64,000 nt of DNA from positions 1 to 64,000 of the forward strand of contig NZ_FOIJ01000015.1 in NCBI RefSeq assembly GCF_900111745.1, written 5' to 3'. How positions within the stretch are numbered: position 1 is the stretch's first letter; each line of letters opens with the position of its first letter. Below, one piece after another: positions 43,234-59,312 of the stretch. The position numbers and the translations under genes are program-made. This DNA comes from Stigmatella erecta (GTDB lineage Bacteria; Myxococcota; Myxococcia; Myxococcales; Myxococcaceae). The notes under the pieces are model-generated. The model had not been told where the DNA came from. It did no database searches and saw nothing but the letters and a program-made list of their open reading frames with translations.

Positions 43234-44124
43234 TCAGATGCCGCCCGCCTCCGCCCACCGTTTGGGACGGGCCTTGAGGGTGGTGAGCCCCAGCCGGTCG
43301 CACATCGCCTCGAAGGGGGCCCGGGGCACCCCCTTCCACGCGAGCGCCCCCAGGGACTCCTTCAGGGGCGCGTCCGTCACCAGCGTGGCGAGCCTCCGGT
43401 AGAGCAGCGCCTCCTCGCGGTGCTCCCGGAGCGTGGCCGCCAGCCGGTCCGCGCCGCGCGGGCGCACCGACCAGTCCGCCGCCTCCGCCGGGATGGCCTC
43501 CAGGTGGCCGTAGGCCGTGAGCAGCGCGGCGGCCCCCTTCCCCCCGAAGCCCGGCAGCCCGGGGATGCCGTCCGCGTCGTCCCCCACCAGCGCCAGCAGA
43601 TCCGGCACGCTCGCCGGGGGCACGCCGAGCTTCGCGCGCACCCCTTCCGCGTCCAGTTCCTTCTCCTGGCGCCGGTCCACCTGCACCACGCGCTGGCCCC
43701 GCACGCACTGGCCCAGGTCCTTGTCCGGGGTGAGCAGCCGCACCTGCTCCACCTGATCCGCCCAGCGCGCCGCCGCGGTGGCCAGCGCATCGTCCGCCTC
43801 GTGGTCCTTCATGGACCAGGCAGTGACGCCCAGCGCGCGCACGGCCTCCTCGGCCAGGTCGAACTGCGCGAGCAGCTCCGGGGGCACGCCCTCCTCGGAC
43901 TTGTAGCCCGCGAACAGCGCGTTGCGGAACGAGCGGATGGGGTTATCGAAGGCCACCGCCAGGTGCGTCACCGCCTCGGCCTTGTCGTGCAAGAGCGCGA
44001 GCAGCGAGGACATCAACCCCACGGTGGCCTTCACGTCCTGCCCATCCGGCGCCTCGTGCCCCGGCCGGGGCGAGAAGTGCGCGCGAAACAGCTCATACGT
44101 TCCGTCAACCAGGTGCAGACGCAT
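43234..44124 (-). CDS. 5'-3' exonuclease / FEN-family nuclease (PolA N-domain-like)
   Basis: A stand-alone 296-residue flap endonuclease-type protein like the N-terminal domain of DNA polymerase I. Metal-binding acids lie in HLVDGTYELFRAHF, KDHEADDALATAAA, RLLTPDKDLGQCV and LALVGDDADGIPGLPGFGGKGAA; the last part is the helix-hairpin-helix/H3TH region that tracks DNA. It would remove 5' flaps or RNA primers. A loop after GYKSEEGVPPEL forms the helical arch. It is probably an accessory to PolA in Okazaki fragment processing or repair. A Pro/Arg C-terminus is short. It is divergent from the lipoprotein pair at 44263. Confidence 0.9.
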   Translation of the reverse strand: MRLHLVDGTYELFRAHFSPRPGHEAPDGQDVKATVGLMSSLLALLHDKAEAVTHLAVAFDNPIRSFRNALFAGYKSEEGVPPELLAQFDLAEEAVRALGVTAWSMKDHEADDALATAAARWADQVEQVRLLTPDKDLGQCVRGQRVVQVDRRQEKELDAEGVRAKLGVPPASVPDLLALVGDDADGIPGLPGFGGKGAAALLTAYGHLEAIPAEAADWSVRPRGADRLAATLREHREEALLYRRLATLVTDAPLKESLGALAWKGVPRAPFEAMCDRLGLTTLKARPKRWAEAGGI

Positions 44125-44262
44125 GGGGGAGACCTTGGCAACCGGGCTGGCTGGAGAGCAAGCGTCCTCGCGCGAGGCGGGTTGCTGGCCTGTCCTTCCG
44201 TCCCCACCTCATGGGCCATGGGGTGGCCCGGCATCCCGGGCGTTTTGCCCGGAGGGAAGACC

Positions 44263-51331: not shown

Positions 51332-51384
51332 AGTCAGATTAGATTACTATGGCTGGACAGTATCCGCCAGGAAGAGAACAGACG

Positions 51385-52644
51385 ATGAAGAAACAGGTTG
51401 GAATCGAAGCGTTGGCCATCGCCGTCCCCCGCCGCTACGTGGACATCGAGGAGCTGGCGCGCGCCCGAGGGGTGGATCCTGCCAAGTACACCGCGGGGCT
51501 GGGCGCCAAGGAGATGGCGGTCGCGGACCCGGGCGAGGATGCGGTGGCGCTGGCGGCGTCGGCCGCCGCTCGGCTGATGCGCACCCACGCGGTGGACCCG
51601 GCCAAGCTGGGCATGCTGGTGGTGGGCACCGAGACGGGCGTGGACCACTCCAAGCCGGTGGCCTCCCACGTGCAGGGCCTCCTGAAGCTGCCCAGCAGCA
51701 TGCGCGTGTATGACTCGCAGCACGCCTGCTACGGCGGCACCGCGGGCCTGATGGCGGCGGTGGAGTGGATCGCCTCGGGAGCGGCCGCCGGCCGCTCCGC
51801 GATGGTCATCTGCTCGGACATCGCCCGGTACGGGCTCAACACGCCCGGCGAGCCCACGCAGGGTGGCGGCGCGGTGGCGCTGCTCGTCTCCGAGCAGCCG
51901 GACCTGCTCGCCGTGGACGTGGGGCTCAACGGCGCGTGCAGCATGGACGTGTATGACTTCTGGCGCCCCATCGGCCGCCGCGAGGCGGTGGTGGACGGGC
52001 ACTACTCCATCAAGTGCTACACGGACGCGCTCTCGGGGGCGTACCGCAACTGGCGCGAGCGGGCGCTGGCGCACGAGGTGGTGCGCTGGGGCGCGACGAT
52101 GCCCGGCGAGCAGCTGGCGCGCATCCTCTACCACGTGCCGTTCTGCAAGATGGCGCGCAAGGCGCACACCCAGCTGCGGCTGTGTGACATCGAGGACGCG
52201 CCCAACGCCCCGGCCTCCACGCCCGAGGGGCGCGAGGAGCTGGCCAAGTCGAGCGCGAGCTACAACGCCCAGGTGGCCAGCTCGCTGGACCTGAACGCGC
52301 GCGTGGGCAACGTGTACACCGCCTCGCTGTACCTGGCGCTCGCGGGCCTGCTGAACACGGAAGGCGCGGCGCTCGCGGGCCAGCGCGTGGGCCTGCTGTC
52401 CTACGGCAGCGGCTGCGCCTCGGAGTTCTACTCCGGCGTGGTGGGCGACAAGGCGGCGAAGCGCATGGCGACGACCAACGTGGAGGCGGTCATGGCCAAG
52501 CGCGAGCGCGTCTCGGTGGCGGAGTACGAGCGCATCATGAACCTGTCCTACGAGAACCCCGAGCCCCTGCCGCCCCAGGCGGGCGAGTTCCGGCTCTCGG
52601 AGATCCGCGACCACAAGCGCCTCTACACCCAGGGCCCGGCCTAA
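51385..52644 (+). CDS. mvaS: 3-hydroxy-3-methylglutaryl-CoA synthase of the aib operon
   Basis: A 419-residue thiolase-fold enzyme that condenses acetyl-CoA and acetoacetyl-CoA to HMG-CoA, the entry step of alternative isovaleryl-CoA synthesis. Catalytic Cys115 is in DSQHACYGGTAGL. The active-site Glu region is GLGAKEMAVADPGED, the His region is YHVPFCKMARKAH, and GSGCASEFYSG is the C-terminal motif. ATG 51385, with GGAAGAGA upstream, is preferred over an ATG at 51349 that lies outside the conserved start KKQVGIEALAIAVP. It is the last gene of the operon; a 10-bp-stem hairpin follows at 52659-52689. Confidence 0.94.
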   Translation: MKKQVGIEALAIAVPRRYVDIEELARARGVDPAKYTAGLGAKEMAVADPGEDAVALAASAAARLMRTHAVDPAKLGMLVVGTETGVDHSKPVASHVQGLLKLPSSMRVYDSQHACYGGTAGLMAAVEWIASGAAAGRSAMVICSDIARYGLNTPGEPTQGGGAVALLVSEQPDLLAVDVGLNGACSMDVYDFWRPIGRREAVVDGHYSIKCYTDALSGAYRNWRERALAHEVVRWGATMPGEQLARILYHVPFCKMARKAHTQLRLCDIEDAPNAPASTPEGREELAKSSASYNAQVASSLDLNARVGNVYTASLYLALAGLLNTEGAALAGQRVGLLSYGSGCASEFYSGVVGDKAAKRMATTNVEAVMAKRERVSVAEYERIMNLSYENPEPLPPQAGEFRLSEIRDHKRLYTQGPA

Positions 52645-52658
52645 CGGTTTCCCCCCGG

Positions 52659-52689
52659 GGCCCAGAGGAGCAGCTTTCGCCTCTGGGCC
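52659..52689. terminator. hairpin terminating the aib operon (bidirectional)
   Basis: GGCCCAGAGG (52659-52668) and CCTCTGGGCC (52680-52689) pair perfectly around an 11-nt loop in the 60-bp gap between the convergent mvaS and lipoprotein genes. It probably serves both directions. Confidence 0.7.
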
Positions 52690-52704
52690 GTGGGTTCGCA
52701 GGGC

Positions 52705-54519
52705 CTACTTCTGCGGCGAAACGCCCTGGGTGCACTGGCGCAGGAGCTGCTCGGCGCCGAGCCGGTTGATGAGGTTGGAGAGGTTCTCCAGCGAAGCCCG
52801 GTCCACCTGCTCGTCGGCCTTCGGCACGTCCAGCACGAGCCGCCGCTCCCGGGGCGCCACGCCCCCCTCCACCACCGGGAAGTCCAGGCGGGCCAGCAGC
52901 TCGCAGGGCTCCGTCACGAGTCCCCCCGCCGGCGGCCTCACCGTCTGCGTGGAGCGCAGGGACAGCGTGTACTGCTGCGTCACCTCGTCCCGGCTGACGC
53001 GGGCCTCCACGGGCACATCGCGCCCGCCGGGGCACTTCAGCACGTCGGCCTGCACCGCCATCTCCCGCTGCCGGTCGATGGGGTTGCCCACGTCGTTGAG
53101 ATCAAACGGCACCTCCCACTTCCAGCGCACCAGCGCCCCCGAGGGCTCGGGCGTGGGCACGAGCGAGGCGAACCGGGGCGTCCACTGCGGATTCGGGTTC
53201 GACTGGAACTGGAGGTTCTCCGGGGTGAAGGACAGCGCCACGCGCTCCCCGCCCACGGTGATGGCCAGGTCGCTCGTGAGGGTGTAGCGGATGGCGGGCG
53301 GGCCGGAGGCGACGATGAAGCTGTTCTTCGGCATGCCCCGGACGACGAAGGTGCACTGCGGCACGCCCTGGGTGGTGTTCACCGAGGGCAGCCCCAGCAC
53401 CGAGGGCAGGCCCTCGTAGAGCGCCGGGGTGACGCCGCTCACCTCCCAGCGCGCCAGACACATGGTCGAGGGAATCCCCGCCAGGGTGAAGCGGTGCTCG
53501 TGCACCTTGCCGCTGGTGAGCCGCTCGGGAGGCTCCAGCCCCGTGGGCGTGTAGAGGGTGCGGAACGCGGCCTGAATGGCCTTGGGGTCCTCCAGGGGCC
53601 GGAACGCGCTCTCGTTCAGGGAAGGGATGAGCGTCTTGAAGCTCTCCTCGCTGTACTCGCTGCTGCCCTCGTAGCGCGAGGCCGAGGAGAGGCGGCCCGA
53701 GATCACCCCCGTGCCCCCGCCCATGCTCGCGTCGATGCTGAGCTTCGTACCGGTGGTCTGCGCCGCCGCGCCGAGCAGCACCGCCCCCTTGAAGGCCTTG
53801 AGCACGTAGGCGGGGCCCTGCAGCAGCTCCGGCGAGCGCCGGTAGCGCTCCCACAGGAGCATCCGCGCGTACACGGAGCGCGCGCCGCCGCCGTCCAGCA
53901 TGTCCGCGAAGGGGGACTCGAAGAAGCCGGTGGCGAGGCTCGCGCGGCCGCCCGCGCTGAGCTGGGCATCGAGCGCGGACTGCACCGAGGCGAGCGGCAG
54001 GGAGACGCCGCCGCCTGAGTTGGCGCTCACGTAGGTGGCACACGACTGCCGGTACAGGATGGCGTCGATGCCGGGCGTGCTGCGCGGAAGGATGTCGAAG
54101 GCCAGCTCCTCGGTGACGACGTCCTGCTCGGTGAGCAGGTGCTGCTCGTTGAGCGCGGGCACGGCGGTGCTGGGCGCGGAGGCGTGGGACATGTACGCCT
54201 GCTTCTCGTCCTCGGTGAACGGGTAGAGGAACAGGAGCGAGGAGTGCCAGGACTGGGTGATGGGAATCACGTCCAGTTCCTGCTGGGTCATCGCGAAGTT
54301 GTTGGGCAGGAAGTTCCGGCCCTCGTAGTCGCCGGGCTTCACCTTCTCGCTCGCGGGCACGACGCGGCACTGCTGAACCAACGTCTTGAAGCGGTGATTC
54401 AGGTGGTCACCCATGGAGCCCTGCACGTAGGTGACCTTCCGGAAGTGCTTGTCCATGAACCCACAGCCGCTGGCGCTCAGCGCACCCAGCAGGCCTACAG
54501 CCGCGACGTAGCCTCTCAA
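52705..54519 (-). CDS. large lipoprotein of unknown function
   Basis: The start is a TTG at 54519 with a strong GGAGG five bases upstream, directly before the signal LRGYVAAVGLLGALSASGC (Cys near 20). Any longer start lacks support. The 604-residue mature protein has no family I recognise. It contains PNNFAMTQQELDVIPITQSWH, a Ser/Gly-rich stretch (LSIDASMGGGTGVISGRLSSAS), TMCLARWEVSGVTPALYEGL and a beta-rich C-terminal third (VEARVSRDEVTQQYTLSLRS). It is likely periplasmic or outer-membrane. It is convergent with the aib operon and divergent from the hydrolase/sulfatase/ATP-grasp operon. Confidence 0.75.
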   Translation of the reverse strand: MRGYVAAVGLLGALSASGCGFMDKHFRKVTYVQGSMGDHLNHRFKTLVQQCRVVPASEKVKPGDYEGRNFLPNNFAMTQQELDVIPITQSWHSSLLFLYPFTEDEKQAYMSHASAPSTAVPALNEQHLLTEQDVVTEELAFDILPRSTPGIDAILYRQSCATYVSANSGGGVSLPLASVQSALDAQLSAGGRASLATGFFESPFADMLDGGGARSVYARMLLWERYRRSPELLQGPAYVLKAFKGAVLLGAAAQTTGTKLSIDASMGGGTGVISGRLSSASRYEGSSEYSEESFKTLIPSLNESAFRPLEDPKAIQAAFRTLYTPTGLEPPERLTSGKVHEHRFTLAGIPSTMCLARWEVSGVTPALYEGLPSVLGLPSVNTTQGVPQCTFVVRGMPKNSFIVASGPPAIRYTLTSDLAITVGGERVALSFTPENLQFQSNPNPQWTPRFASLVPTPEPSGALVRWKWEVPFDLNDVGNPIDRQREMAVQADVLKCPGGRDVPVEARVSRDEVTQQYTLSLRSTQTVRPPAGGLVTEPCELLARLDFPVVEGGVAPRERRLVLDVPKADEQVDRASLENLSNLINRLGAEQLLRQCTQGVSPQK

Positions 54520-54647
54520 GGGGACCTCCGATCGAGATGTTCCTCGCGTCTCACTGAAACACACCCCCCTCGTTTCCCCCAAGGCTGACACTCCGGGGCG
54601 GCGCGCTGCTGGGTTGTGCCTTGGACGTTCCCGCATACACTGCCGCC

Positions 54648-55211
54648 GTGCAGACCCCCGGCCATGCGGTCCTCAACCTCGCGCTCCTGAGCGGCGGGGC
54701 CTCCTCCGCGCTCGTGCTGCCCATCGTCGCGGGCGCCGTGGCGCCGGACGTGCCCATCGTGGTGCTCTACCTGCGCGAGAAGTACCTCCGGGGCCTGCCC
54801 GACGAGCGCATCTGGAGCGAGAGCTACCAGCGCCCCTTCTGGCTCAACCTGATCCACGGCGCCCACTCCATTCCCCTCACCCTCCTGGGCGCGCTCGCCT
54901 GCTGGGCGCTGGGCGTTCCCGCGCTGGCCGCCTTCTTCGCCAGCGCGCTGCTGCACGCGCTGGGCGACTTGCCCGTCCATGCCCAGGATGCGCACCGCCA
55001 CTTCCTTCCCTTCAGCCACTACCGCTTCATCAGCCCGCTGTCCTACTGGGATGTGCGCCACCACGCCCGCATCGTGGCCCTCGTCGAGGCGCTCCTGGTC
55101 ATCGGGGCCGCCGCGGTGCTGGGGGCCAGGGCCTCGGGGGTGAGCCGGGGGGTGCTCGCCGCCGTGGCGGTCTGGTACCTGGTCACCTATTGGAAGAACT
55201 TCCTGAGATGA
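54648..55211 (+). CDS. membrane protein, YdjM/LexA-regulated-hydrolase-like
   Basis: A protein of about 187 residues from GTG 54648 (VQTPGHAVLNLA); a TTG at 54621 is an alternative start and neither has a strong ribosome site. About four hydrophobic helices carry His/Asp clusters at GHAVLNLALLSGG, NLIHGAHSIPLTL, LLHALGDLPVHAQDAHRHFLPF and SYWDVRHHARIV. These clusters match the metal-dependent membrane-hydrolase family PF04307 (YdjM-like), whose reaction is poorly known. Its stop overlaps the sulfatase-like ATG (ATGA, 55208-55211), so it is the first gene of a tightly coupled operon. Confidence 0.72.
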   Translation: MQTPGHAVLNLALLSGGASSALVLPIVAGAVAPDVPIVVLYLREKYLRGLPDERIWSESYQRPFWLNLIHGAHSIPLTLLGALACWALGVPALAAFFASALLHALGDLPVHAQDAHRHFLPFSHYRFISPLSYWDVRHHARIVALVEALLVIGAAAVLGARASGVSRGVLAAVAVWYLVTYWKNFLR

Positions 55212-57070
55212 CGCCGCTTCTGGCCACCTTCGCCGGGCGCTGGGTGGAGCTGGCCGCGGCGGGCGCCGCCCTGGCCGTGCTGGTGAAGGCGGTGAAGTAC
55301 CGGGACTTCACCGGCACCGCCGCGCTGGGACGCGATGACCTGGGCTGGGTGGCGCTGCTGGGCTTGGGGCTCTCGGGGCTGGCGCTGCTCGGCCCGGTGG
55401 GGCTCGTGCTCGGGGCACTGGCCGGCACGCTGCTGCTCGCCGCGCTCTGGCTGGATGCGGTGCTCTTCCGCATCTTCACCATCGAGCTGGGGCCGGGCGG
55501 GGTCGACAGCGTCATCCTCTCGGTGCTCTACCGGGAGCTGGCCGAGCTGGCCTTCGCCCGCCGGTTCTTCGCCGCGCACCGGCTCTTCGCCCTGCTGCCC
55601 GGAGCCGCGCTGGTGCTCCTGGGGGCGGTGCTGCTCACGCCCCCCGGCGCCGTCCGGCTGGCTGCCGGGGCCCTGCCCACCGCCTGGCTGGTGCTGTGCG
55701 CCGCCTTCAGCGTGCCCCCGCGGGCGCGGCGGCAGGTCTTCGCCGCCACGGCCGTCCTCCTGGCCTCCGCCGGGGTGGAATGGCTGTTTCCCCACGCGGC
55801 CTGGGCGCTGGCCGCCGTGCCGCTGGGCGCGATGGGCTGGGCGTGGCTTCCTCCGTCCCGCCGCGCCGCACCGGATGCCCTGCGTCACTTCGTCATCGAG
55901 CGGGCCTGGCCCGATCCCCCGGACTTCCAGCCCCGGCCGGAGCATGCACCGCTCCTCACCCAGGCGCCCCACGCCCCCCGCGTGAGCCCGGAGCACGGCC
56001 TGCTCCGGGGCTGTGACGTGGTGCTCTTCACCTTCGAGTCCGTGGGCCGGGCGCACCTCTCCGCCCTCACCCCGGGAGGAGCACCGGCGGCCTTCTTCGA
56101 GCGGCTGCTGCCGGGAGCGCTCCATTCCCGCCACCACGCGTGCGTGTCTCCCACCACCAACAACGCCCACGCCGCGCTCTACACCAGTGGTTACGGCGCC
56201 GGGGCCTCGGCCTGCCTGGACGCGCTGCGGAAAGAGGGATACCGCACGGCCTACCTCTCCACGGCCCACACAGGGGACTACGGCCTGCGGCCCATCCTGG
56301 ACGCGGCGGGCTTCGAGCACGTCATCGACCGTGAGGCGCTGGCCCCGCCGGGAGGCCCCACGCCGCCGGATCAGCTCCTGCTCTCCGCGGGGATGGACCG
56401 GATGCAAGAGGCGCTGGGCGGCCACCGGCCCTTCTTCCTGCACGTGCATGCCACCCACACCCACGTGCCCTACCGGGTGGCCGAGCCCGAACGCTTCCAC
56501 CGCTTCAACATGAGCGAGGACCGGGGGAGGTTCTTCAACGGCATCGAGGAGAGCGATTGGCTCTTCGGCGCCCTGCTGGAGGAACTGCGGCGGCGAGGGC
56601 TCACCGACGAGCCCCTGGTGGTGGTGAGCAGCGACCACGGGCAGGCCTTCGGAGGGCTGGGCTACCAGTCCCATGGCAGCGCGGTGACGCGGGAGGAGCT
56701 GGACGTCCCCTTGCTGTTCCACCACGGACGGCTGCCCGCGCGCGAGGCCGCCTTCTCCTCGCACTTCGACGTGCTGCCCACCGTGCTGGATTTGGTGGGA
56801 GTTCAAACCGAAACGCCCCTTTTCGGGGACTCTCTGCTGTTGGAGGACAAACGGCCCGAGCTGCTGGTGTGGGCGGGGCACCCGTCGCGCCGGACCACGT
56901 CCCACGCGGGCTTGCTGCTGGCGGAAGACAAGTGGATGGTGGACCTGGCGCTGGACCGCTGCCTGCGCATGGACTGGCGGGACGAGCACGTGGAAGAGCT
57001 GAGCGGCGCCGAGAAGGACTACGTGCAGGCCCTGGTCTTCCGGCTGATGCGCTTGCGAGGTGTCACGTGA
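55208..57070 (+). CDS. membrane sulfatase-like / alkaline-phosphatase-superfamily enzyme
   Basis: A 620-residue protein with about seven N-terminal membrane helices (1-215) and a periplasmic catalytic domain (about 265-560). Metal-site residues are Glu277 in FTFESVGRAH, the probable nucleophile Thr316 or Thr317 in CVSPTTNN, and Asp476-His477 in VVSSDHGQAFGG; PFFLHVHATHTHVPY also fits. The layout resembles LTA-synthase and phosphoethanolamine-transferase type enzymes, which move phosphoglycol groups from lipids, but no specific substrate follows. The first and last genes of the operon overlap it by 4 nt each (ATGA at 55208, GTGA at 57067). Confidence 0.87.
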   Translation: MTPLLATFAGRWVELAAAGAALAVLVKAVKYRDFTGTAALGRDDLGWVALLGLGLSGLALLGPVGLVLGALAGTLLLAALWLDAVLFRIFTIELGPGGVDSVILSVLYRELAELAFARRFFAAHRLFALLPGAALVLLGAVLLTPPGAVRLAAGALPTAWLVLCAAFSVPPRARRQVFAATAVLLASAGVEWLFPHAAWALAAVPLGAMGWAWLPPSRRAAPDALRHFVIERAWPDPPDFQPRPEHAPLLTQAPHAPRVSPEHGLLRGCDVVLFTFESVGRAHLSALTPGGAPAAFFERLLPGALHSRHHACVSPTTNNAHAALYTSGYGAGASACLDALRKEGYRTAYLSTAHTGDYGLRPILDAAGFEHVIDREALAPPGGPTPPDQLLLSAGMDRMQEALGGHRPFFLHVHATHTHVPYRVAEPERFHRFNMSEDRGRFFNGIEESDWLFGALLEELRRRGLTDEPLVVVSSDHGQAFGGLGYQSHGSAVTREELDVPLLFHHGRLPAREAAFSSHFDVLPTVLDLVGVQTETPLFGDSLLLEDKRPELLVWAGHPSRRTTSHAGLLLAEDKWMVDLALDRCLRMDWRDEHVEELSGAEKDYVQALVFRLMRLRGVT

Positions 57071-58362
57071 CCGCTGTCTCCCCGCTGTCTCCCGCGAGGC
57101 CCCGGGTGCTCGTGCTCTGCCCAGGGCCGTGGGACAAGCAAGCCCTGGGGGCGCGCTTCGACACCCGCTACGAGCTGCTCTACGCCGGCGAGGAACTCAT
57201 TGAGACGCCCTCGCTGTGGGACGGCGTGCGCTTCAACGTCTTCCGCTGGGTGGATCAGACGGTGAAGGCCTGGCGGGGCCAGGGGCTCGCGGGGGTGGTG
57301 GGGACCGGGGACTACCCGGGCTGCATGCTGGCGTCGCTGGTGGGAGAGCAGCTGGGGTTGCCGGTGCCGCCGCCCGCGGCCGTGGTGCAGCTGAGCCACA
57401 AGTACTACAGCCGTTGCATCCAGCAGAAGCTGGTGCCGGAGGCCACACCCGGCTTCGAGCCGTTGGATCCGTTCGGAGGCCCGCCGAAGCTCCAGCGGCT
57501 CGGGTATCCGCTGTTCATCAAGCCCGTGAAGGGCACCATGTCCATCCGGGCCCAGCGGGTCCACAGCGCGGGAGAGTTCCGCCAGGCGGTACACTTCTCG
57601 TGGCGCGAGCGGCTGGCGAAGCACCTGCTGCTGCGCCCCTTCCAGCACCTGCTGGAGCGGTACACGGATGGCAAGGTCCCCGCCTGGCACTTCATCGGCG
57701 AGGCGCTGCTGGAGGGGACGCAGGTGACGGTGGACGGCTTCGTCGAGCGGGGCCGGGCGGTGGTGATGGGCATCGTGGACTCGGTGATGTACCCGGGGAC
57801 CATCAGCTTCCAGCGCTTCGAGTCTCCCTCGGGACTGCCGGGCCCGGTGCAGGAGCGCATGCGCCAGGTGGCGGTGCGCTTGATGGAGGGCAGCGGCTTC
57901 AACCACGCGTGCTTCAACATCGAGATGTTCTACGACCCGGCACAGGACCGGGTGTCCGTCATCGAGGTGAACCCGCGGATGTCCTACCAGTTCGCGGACC
58001 TCTACGAGCGCCTGGCGGGCATGAACACCTACGAGGCGCAGCTCGCGCTGGCGGTGGGGCAGCCCGTGCCGTGGCGCGCGGCCTCGGGCCAGGCGGGGGC
58101 GGCGGCGAGCTTCGTCCTCCGGCGCTTCAGCGATGCGCGCGTGGATCAGGTGCCTTCGGCGGAGGAGATCGCCCAGGTGAAGGAGCGCTTTCCCGGCACC
58201 ATCATCCAGGTGCTGTGCGCTCCGGGGGAGCGGCTCTCGGACCACGACCAGGACGTGGGCAGCTACCGCTACGGCATCATCAACCTGGGAGCGCCCAGCC
58301 GCGACGAGCTCTTCGAGCGCTACCAGCAGGTGGAGCGAATGCTCCCCTTCCGCTTCAGCTGA
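57067..58362 (+). CDS. ATP-grasp ligase of unknown substrate
   Basis: GTG 57067 overlaps the sulfatase-like stop in GTGA. The 431-residue protein has a Rossmann-like N-terminal part (RVLVLCPGPWDKQALGARF) and an ATP-grasp core: LSHKYYSRCIQQKL, YPLFIKPVKGTMSIRAQRV (ATP-binding Lys), GTQVTVDGFVERGRAVVMG and the metal site SVIEVNPRMSYQFADLYERL. About 90 C-terminal residues follow. It should form an amide or related bond by carboxyl phosphate activation; the partners are unknown. It is cytoplasmic, while its operon partners are membrane-bound, so it may make a head group that the sulfatase-like enzyme transfers; that is inference. Confidence 0.85.
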   Translation: MTAVSPLSPARPRVLVLCPGPWDKQALGARFDTRYELLYAGEELIETPSLWDGVRFNVFRWVDQTVKAWRGQGLAGVVGTGDYPGCMLASLVGEQLGLPVPPPAAVVQLSHKYYSRCIQQKLVPEATPGFEPLDPFGGPPKLQRLGYPLFIKPVKGTMSIRAQRVHSAGEFRQAVHFSWRERLAKHLLLRPFQHLLERYTDGKVPAWHFIGEALLEGTQVTVDGFVERGRAVVMGIVDSVMYPGTISFQRFESPSGLPGPVQERMRQVAVRLMEGSGFNHACFNIEMFYDPAQDRVSVIEVNPRMSYQFADLYERLAGMNTYEAQLALAVGQPVPWRAASGQAGAAASFVLRRFSDARVDQVPSAEEIAQVKERFPGTIIQVLCAPGERLSDHDQDVGSYRYGIINLGAPSRDELFERYQQVERMLPFRFS

Positions 58363-58373
58363 AGCACCGCGGT

Positions 58374-59285
58374 TTACGGCACGAGCACCACGCGCCCTCG
58401 CACCGCCCGCTCCTCGATGAGCGCATGGGCACGCGCCGCCTCGGCGAGCGGGAGCACCCGCGTGGGCGGCGGCGGGAGCCGCAGGCGGATCAGCTCCTGC
58501 GTGGCCCTGCGCAGCACGGTCCCATCGAGCGTCTCGGTCGAGTAGCCGGTGAGGGCGCGCCCATCGAGCAGGCTCCAGACGTCGAAGGCCACGTCGCCCC
58601 CGGCCGCCGCGCCGACGATGCAGTACCGGCCTTCCGGGCGCAGCGCGGAGACCAACGTGGGAAAGAGCGGCCCCGCGACGCTGTCCAGCACCGCGTCGGC
58701 GCTCCCGGGCTGCGGCGCCGGGGAGTTGCGCTCCAAGGCGATCACCTCCGCGCCCAGCGCGCGGCCAAGCCCGGCCGCCACGGCGCCAACGCCGCCCGTC
58801 GCACCGGAGATGACGAGCGTCTTGCCACCCAGCGGGCCCAGCCTGCGCATGCCCTCGATGGCCGTCACCCCGGCAAGCCCGATGGCGGCGAACGCCACGG
58901 CGTCCACACCGGCCGGCAACGGCGCGAGCACGCTGGCCGGGACGGTGAAGAATTCGGCGTAACCACCGTCACGCTCGGCCCGCACACCGCCGAAGCCCTG
59001 CATCGCCGTCCAGGCCCGGTCCCCCACGGCGAACTCACTCACGCCGTCCGCCACCTCGACCACCTCGCCGACGGCCTCCAGCCCGGGCACGTAGGGAAAG
59101 CGCGGCTCCCTCAGGATCGGCCAGTGGCCGGCACGGATCTGAAGATCCGAGTGATTGACGGCCGAGGCGAGCGTGCGCAGCCGCACCTCGCCACGGACGA
59201 GCGGCGCGAGCGCGAGCTCTTCAATCCCGAGGACTTCCGGCGGACCGTTCCGCCGCATCACGACCGCACGCGATTTCGTGGCCAT
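58374..59285 (-). CDS. MDR-family quinone oxidoreductase / alcohol dehydrogenase-like protein
   Basis: A 303-residue protein from ATG 59285 (MATKSRAVVMRR). It shows VPGLEAVGEVVEVADG (about 65-80), the coenzyme motif VISGATGGVGAVAAGLGRALG (about 155-175) and ALRPEGRYCIVGAAAGGDV. The zinc-ligating cysteines of alcohol dehydrogenases are missing, so it belongs with the zinc-independent quinone oxidoreductases, which reduce enones or quinones with NADPH. It is slightly shorter than the usual 320-330 residues because the mid-region is compact. The codon bias is a little softer than in neighbours. It follows the acetyltransferase gene by 28 bp on the same strand. Confidence 0.87.
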   Translation of the reverse strand: MATKSRAVVMRRNGPPEVLGIEELALAPLVRGEVRLRTLASAVNHSDLQIRAGHWPILREPRFPYVPGLEAVGEVVEVADGVSEFAVGDRAWTAMQGFGGVRAERDGGYAEFFTVPASVLAPLPAGVDAVAFAAIGLAGVTAIEGMRRLGPLGGKTLVISGATGGVGAVAAGLGRALGAEVIALERNSPAPQPGSADAVLDSVAGPLFPTLVSALRPEGRYCIVGAAAGGDVAFDVWSLLDGRALTGYSTETLDGTVLRRATQELIRLRLPPPPTRVLPLAEAARAHALIEERAVRGRVVLVP

Positions 59286-59312
59286 GGGGCTCAACCTCTC
59301 CCAGGGGCTGGC

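Follow-up and report, generated by a model that had tools for sequence, protein, structure and literature searches.

In Stigmatella erecta three consecutive genes, here called A, B, and C, are joined by overlapping start and stop codons and encode a polytopic membrane protein, a membrane-anchored member of the sulfatase superfamily and an ATP-grasp enzyme. Which common function could hold such a set together? The original prediction, made from the letters of the window (the whole stretch of 64,000 nucleotides analyzed), was that a small molecule is built by ligation and then linked to an envelope polymer or lipid, or removed from one. That proposal fits the three enzyme classes as they are assigned below. 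No named pathway with this set was known when it was made, and none that combines A, B, and C was found in the open-licence literature either.

Co-Occurrence and Operon Architecture

When A, B, and C were searched for separately in a sample of 195 Myxococcota genomes, full-length C was found in six (G000, G003, G001, G006, G034, and G129), and intact A and intact B were each found in the identical six, always adjacent and in unchanged order. The co-occurrence in other genomes on which the original prediction had been made to depend is therefore what the searches recovered. Naively, the chance of two genes falling in the same six genomes is 1 in 7e10, a figure not to be taken literally as the six span only two genera and hence are not independent draws. 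A seventh operon is present in an uncultured Myxococcales MAG (L017), with identities of 54% for A, 40% for B, and 53% for C.

The coordinates, gene order and ATGA and GTGA overlaps given originally all hold (Table 1). Gene A is taken to start at the GTG at position 54648 because the M-x-TPGH beginning that follows from it is conserved in all seven orthologues. An overlap of the ATGA type between A and B, and one of GTGA or ATGA between B and C, is found in 7/7 orthologous operons (that of G129 being read as locus L041), and as the distant MAG is among them the overlaps are not a matter of chance. For all pairs tested dN/dS was 0.10–0.39 for A, B, and C, i.e., all three genes are under purifying selection.

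Table 1. Positions in the window of the three genes, their overlaps and the neighboring features.
Feature	Position	Strand	Remarks
Gene A	54648..55211	+	GTG start; 187 aa
Gene B	55208..57070	+	ATG start; 620 aa
Gene C	57067..58362	+	GTG start; 431 aa
A/B start/stop overlap, ATGA	55208..55211	+	
B/C start/stop overlap, GTGA	57067..57070	+	
Zinc-type alcohol dehydrogenase/quinone oxidoreductase-like gene	58374..59294	-	Convergent to C
Block of A, B, C and the oxidoreductase gene, present or absent	54564..59309		Absent at the matching site in G004 and G005

Loss of the Operon and Its Neighborhoods

Two genomes from the genus of the window, G004 and G005, lack the operon. In both, the sequences that match window positions 52721–54563 and those that match from about 59309/59310 onward abut with 1–2 bases between them, and this clean empty site indicates that the 4.75-kb block is present or absent as one. 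The oxidoreductase gene within the block is not found beside A, B, and C in the other operons and is therefore probably not part of the pathway. Relics were found in two genomes of one other genus, where only residues 327–430 of C remain in G103 (L042:8910-9221) and only residues 1–136 of A in G033 (L099:9349-9756). The operon was therefore formerly more widespread in that genus and has since decayed, and the two relics are examples of its decay in pieces.

The three genes thus behave as a single unit that is kept or lost together. That three unrelated genes have become coupled by chance is very improbable; in its favor one can say only that no joint function is known, while the genes occupy the same six of 195 genomes, are present or absent as a block, and keep both their order and their overlaps down to 40% identity in B.

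The location of the operon differs between genomes. In G034 it adjoins, at C, a 5′-3′ exonuclease gene, a homologue of which is located at 43252–44148 in the window, about 11 kb from the operon, and this points to a shared old location followed by losses. The operons of G001 and G006 have a second location in common, near a DUF3516 helicase gene. We take these locations to reflect an old operon, inherited vertically, that was rearranged and repeatedly lost. Horizontal gain as the sole account of the patchy distribution is not favored given the exonuclease homologue near the window operon, but horizontal transfer may still have contributed to the history of the operon.

Several differences were seen in the immediate surroundings. 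Among the neighbors of the operon in the genomes that bear it, no gene for a glycosyltransferase, flippase, or lipid carrier is conserved. In the near-identical sister genome G003 a B12-binding radical SAM gene (L018:9962-11326), which is absent from the window, follows directly after C, between C and the oxidoreductase gene. In G006 an ABC-2 transporter permease/ATPase pair (L020:12410-14133) is located directly upstream of A, where G001 has an unrelated gene in divergent orientation. Further upstream in the window is an HMG-CoA synthase gene (51349–52644) that is 99% identical in G003 and 91–93% identical in G004 and G005. It adjoins a gene for a 643-aa lipoprotein-like protein (52705–54636, minus strand) with no Pfam match, and at L110 and L109 these two genes are separated by about 2.3–2.9 kb that has no counterpart in the window (52635–52721).

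The Products of the Three Genes

The original prediction described A as YdjM-like and metal-dependent, and the likeness to YdjM stands as a remote relationship. A, a polytopic membrane protein of 187 aa, gave no match in a Pfam search up to E 1 and did not reach the cut-off of PF04307 (YdjM); a PF04307 search of its own genome returned two true YdjM members elsewhere and not A. Compared by hhalign with an alignment built from PF04307 matches, however, A was related to YdjM with a probability of 94% (E 9e-8), and H6, P33-D34, H73, H103, and D107 were aligned, the YdjM motif PDxD reading PDxP in A. Across the myxobacterial and alphaproteobacterial relatives H6, P33-D34, H73, H103, D107, H111, D114, R117, and S129-P-x-S-Y-W134 are invariant, and the histidines and aspartates up to D114, together with P33, look like a putative metal site. 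Judged by its sequence, A is thus distantly related to YdjM, and its score does not place it within PF04307. Its structural prediction (pLDDT 53) was too poor to be of use.

B belongs to the sulfatase superfamily (PF00884, 1.9e-23), and its best PDB match by profile is the Listeria LTA primase LtaP (4uop, 9.9e-15). Residues E277, T317, D476, H477, and H419 of B align with Glu-263, Thr-307, Asp-481, His-482, and His-422 of the LtaS active site (PMC4192460) and are invariant in 7/7 orthologues. By this alignment E277, D476, and H477 would be metal ligands, T317 the nucleophile and H419 a phosphate ligand. The hydrophobic helices are confined to residues 1–200, ahead of the catalytic domain. Of the two names offered originally, LTA-synthase-like transferase and sulfatase, only the first is retained, because the sulfatase active site is absent: there is no C/S-x-P-x-R at the nucleophile, where the sequence reads CVSPTTNN or CLAPLTNA, and the one SVPPR present, in the membrane part, lacks conservation. 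On its sequence B is best called an LTA-synthase-type phosphotransferase. Membership of the STM4013/SEN3800 cluster was considered and rejected, as the NF038075 cut-off is 250 bits and B scored 22.4. In NCBIfam both B and C had sub-cut-off matches only.

It is conceivable that B hydrolyses rather than transfers, i.e., that it strips a phospho-group from an extracellular compound, that A aids release or uptake, and that C re-ligates or detoxifies the product. The active site of the superfamily serves hydrolases and transferases alike, and the sub-cut-off NCBIfam matches of B include choline-sulfatase and PehA-type ester hydrolases. Salvage of this kind nevertheless appears unlikely, as LtaP, the best structural match, is a transferase, B is anchored in the membrane and not a secreted catabolic enzyme, and no uptake gene is conserved nearby. 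We infer that B transfers.

C was predicted to be a cytoplasmic ATP-grasp ligase. In agreement with this it matches PF13535 (ATP-grasp_4, 5.5e-11, above the cut-off), has no transmembrane segment and is soluble, and the assignment can be refined as its nearest relatives by fold are L-amino-acid ligases. Ranks 1–5 of a Foldseek search with the AlphaFold model were all L-amino-acid ligases, the best folds being 3vot, 3vmm, and 3wnz, and VIA-align gave Z 25.3 to 3vot and 23.1–23.6 to BacD/YwfE. The model is middling (pLDDT 63), with pLDDT under 50 near residues 308–316 and 338–355. K112, K152, E286, and E300-x-N302-x-R304 are invariant in 9/9 sequences, including the proteobacterial relatives. 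As modeled, C has an intact ATP-grasp site and an L-amino-acid-ligase fold, and is likely an amide-forming ligase; this falls short of proof because the model is middling and biotin carboxylase domains (Z 20–22) follow only 1.5–4 Z lower.

Dipeptide antibiotics are products of L-amino-acid ligases such as BacD. The operon could accordingly be a minimal natural-product cluster, in which C makes a dipeptide-like compound while A and B modify or protect the envelope of the producer against it. The precedent of the BacD-type ligases, the patchy distribution with loss as a block, which suits an accessory metabolite, and the ABC-2 transporter of G006 would agree with this. On the other hand the other genomes have no conserved adjoining transporter or regulator, and there is no common tailoring enzyme, the upstream genes varying between operons. 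Such a cluster must be considered quite unlikely.

Relatives in Copper Islands

Relatives of C were not found in the viral contigs searched. Outside the Myxococcota the relatives of A and C dealt with here are plasmid loci. For C they are found in Paraburkholderia fungorum (43% identity) and Sphingobium yanoikuyae (39%), while Sphingomonas koreensis has a broken copy and Microvirga a remnant; for A they are found in Tabrizicola, Neotabrizicola, and Gemmobacter (about 33%). All these loci have copper ATPases, CueR-type or heavy-metal regulators, copper-binding proteins, RND metal efflux or multicopper oxidase genes within 12 kb, and several adjoin genes for DsbA, VKOR, or FAD-disulfide oxidoreductases. 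The annotation of these loci includes no B-like gene, and as relatives of A and of C occur there without B, A and C do not depend on B everywhere. On five plasmids (L069, L070, L072, L075, and L076) the recurring gene of the proteobacterial copper-resistance island encodes either an ATP-grasp protein or an A-like membrane protein with the mistaken annotation CobQ, and VKOR, DsbA, L,D-transpeptidase, or FAD-oxidoreductase genes are found nearby. For these CobQ-labeled relatives of YdjM no role was found in the open-licence literature.

These surroundings suggest a different function, namely that C makes a small amide-linked metal-binding or protective compound while A and B adapt the cell envelope to copper or thiol stress; the operon of the myxobacteria would then be a recruited version that contains B. 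The nearest plasmid relatives of both C and A are all in copper islands, several of them beside thiol-redox genes, and a small control of five plasmid loci, chosen by unrelated or remote matches, contained no copper genes. Two of these five do, however, carry Co/Ni/Cd genes, and the islands amount to only about four independent types, while plasmids, which bear all of them, commonly carry metal genes. Moreover, the myxobacterial operons had no copper gene next to them, and a more distant Streptomyces relative of C lies outside any metal island. The association with copper islands is therefore a lead and not proof, and a function in metal or redox stress seems improbable.

A Possible Envelope Modification Pathway

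The explanation tentatively preferred here is that the operon is translationally coupled and serves a small pathway of cell-envelope modification; with its mechanism included it is a possibility that we would put somewhat below even chances. In the cytoplasm, C would couple a carboxylate, probably that of an amino acid, to an amine at the expense of ATP and so yield an amide-linked small molecule or head group. At the outer face of the inner membrane B would take a phospho-head group from a phospholipid donor, forming a covalent intermediate on T317, and would pass it to an acceptor, either the lipid-carried product of C or a glycan. A, located in the membrane, may be a metal-dependent enzyme that releases, trims, or flips the same lipid-linked substrate. 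The resulting decoration of the surface would be optional, in keeping with the patchy presence and the repeated loss of the operon. The substrates of C and of B and A, and the order of the reactions, we infer from the enzyme classes.

Strict co-occurrence, conserved overlaps, purifying selection, intact active sites and the fold classes speak for such a pathway; the poor and middling models of A and C, the possibility that B is a hydrolase, the copper-island relatives of A and C that have no B nearby, and the failure to find a conserved neighboring gene for a glycosyltransferase, flippase, or lipid carrier speak against it. It is tempting to combine it with the copper islands, so that an LTA-synthase-type enzyme and a YdjM-type membrane metalloenzyme together place the product of an ATP-grasp amino-acid ligase on a lipid or a glycan of the surface, in connection with copper or redox stress, but this more specific version is rather doubtful.

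To our knowledge no reaction is known for the YdjM superfamily, widespread as it is. A compact operon in which a YdjM-type protein is combined with a phosphotransferase and a ligase of the amino-acid type offers a testable setting for YdjM function, and if the proposed pathway is correct it would be the first pathway context for the superfamily. It would also show an LTA-synthase-type enzyme at work in a Gram-negative predator, and could help to explain the ATP-grasp genes of the proteobacterial copper islands.

Comparison with Known Systems

Each of the three proteins resembles known families. A and the members of YdjM (PF04307) are both polytopic membrane proteins, and an H near the N terminus, PD, HxS, and HxxxD with the Pro that follows align between them, whereas A has no Pfam match, has PDxP for PDxD, and carries H111, D114, R117, and the SPxSYW motif in addition. 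The alphaproteobacterial membrane protein labeled “cobalamin biosynthesis protein CobQ” on Tabrizicola and Gemmobacter plasmids is 28–34% identical to A and has nearly all of its candidate metal residues, but its gene has DsbA and L,D-transpeptidase genes as neighbors in a copper island, and neither B nor C is there.

B shares with LtaP/LtaS of Firmicutes (PDB 4uop, 4uoo) a putatively membrane-anchored catalytic domain with the Glu, Thr, and Asp-His metal/nucleophile set and the additional His. However, the alignment covers only about 290 residues of the catalytic domain, the host of B is Gram-negative and has no LTA, and the LTA pathway has no partners like A and C. The STM4013/SEN3800 cluster (NCBIfam NF038075) likewise includes a hydrolase of the alkaline phosphatase superfamily, to which B also belongs, but B is far under its cut-off and no common partner families were found. 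The L-amino-acid ligases BL00235, BacD/YwfE, and RizA are the closest folds to the model of C (Z 20–25), and their ATP-grasp Lys and Mg ligands are found in C. They are only 11–16% identical to C, in which the pocket is poorly modeled, and differ from it in that C is coupled to two membrane proteins.
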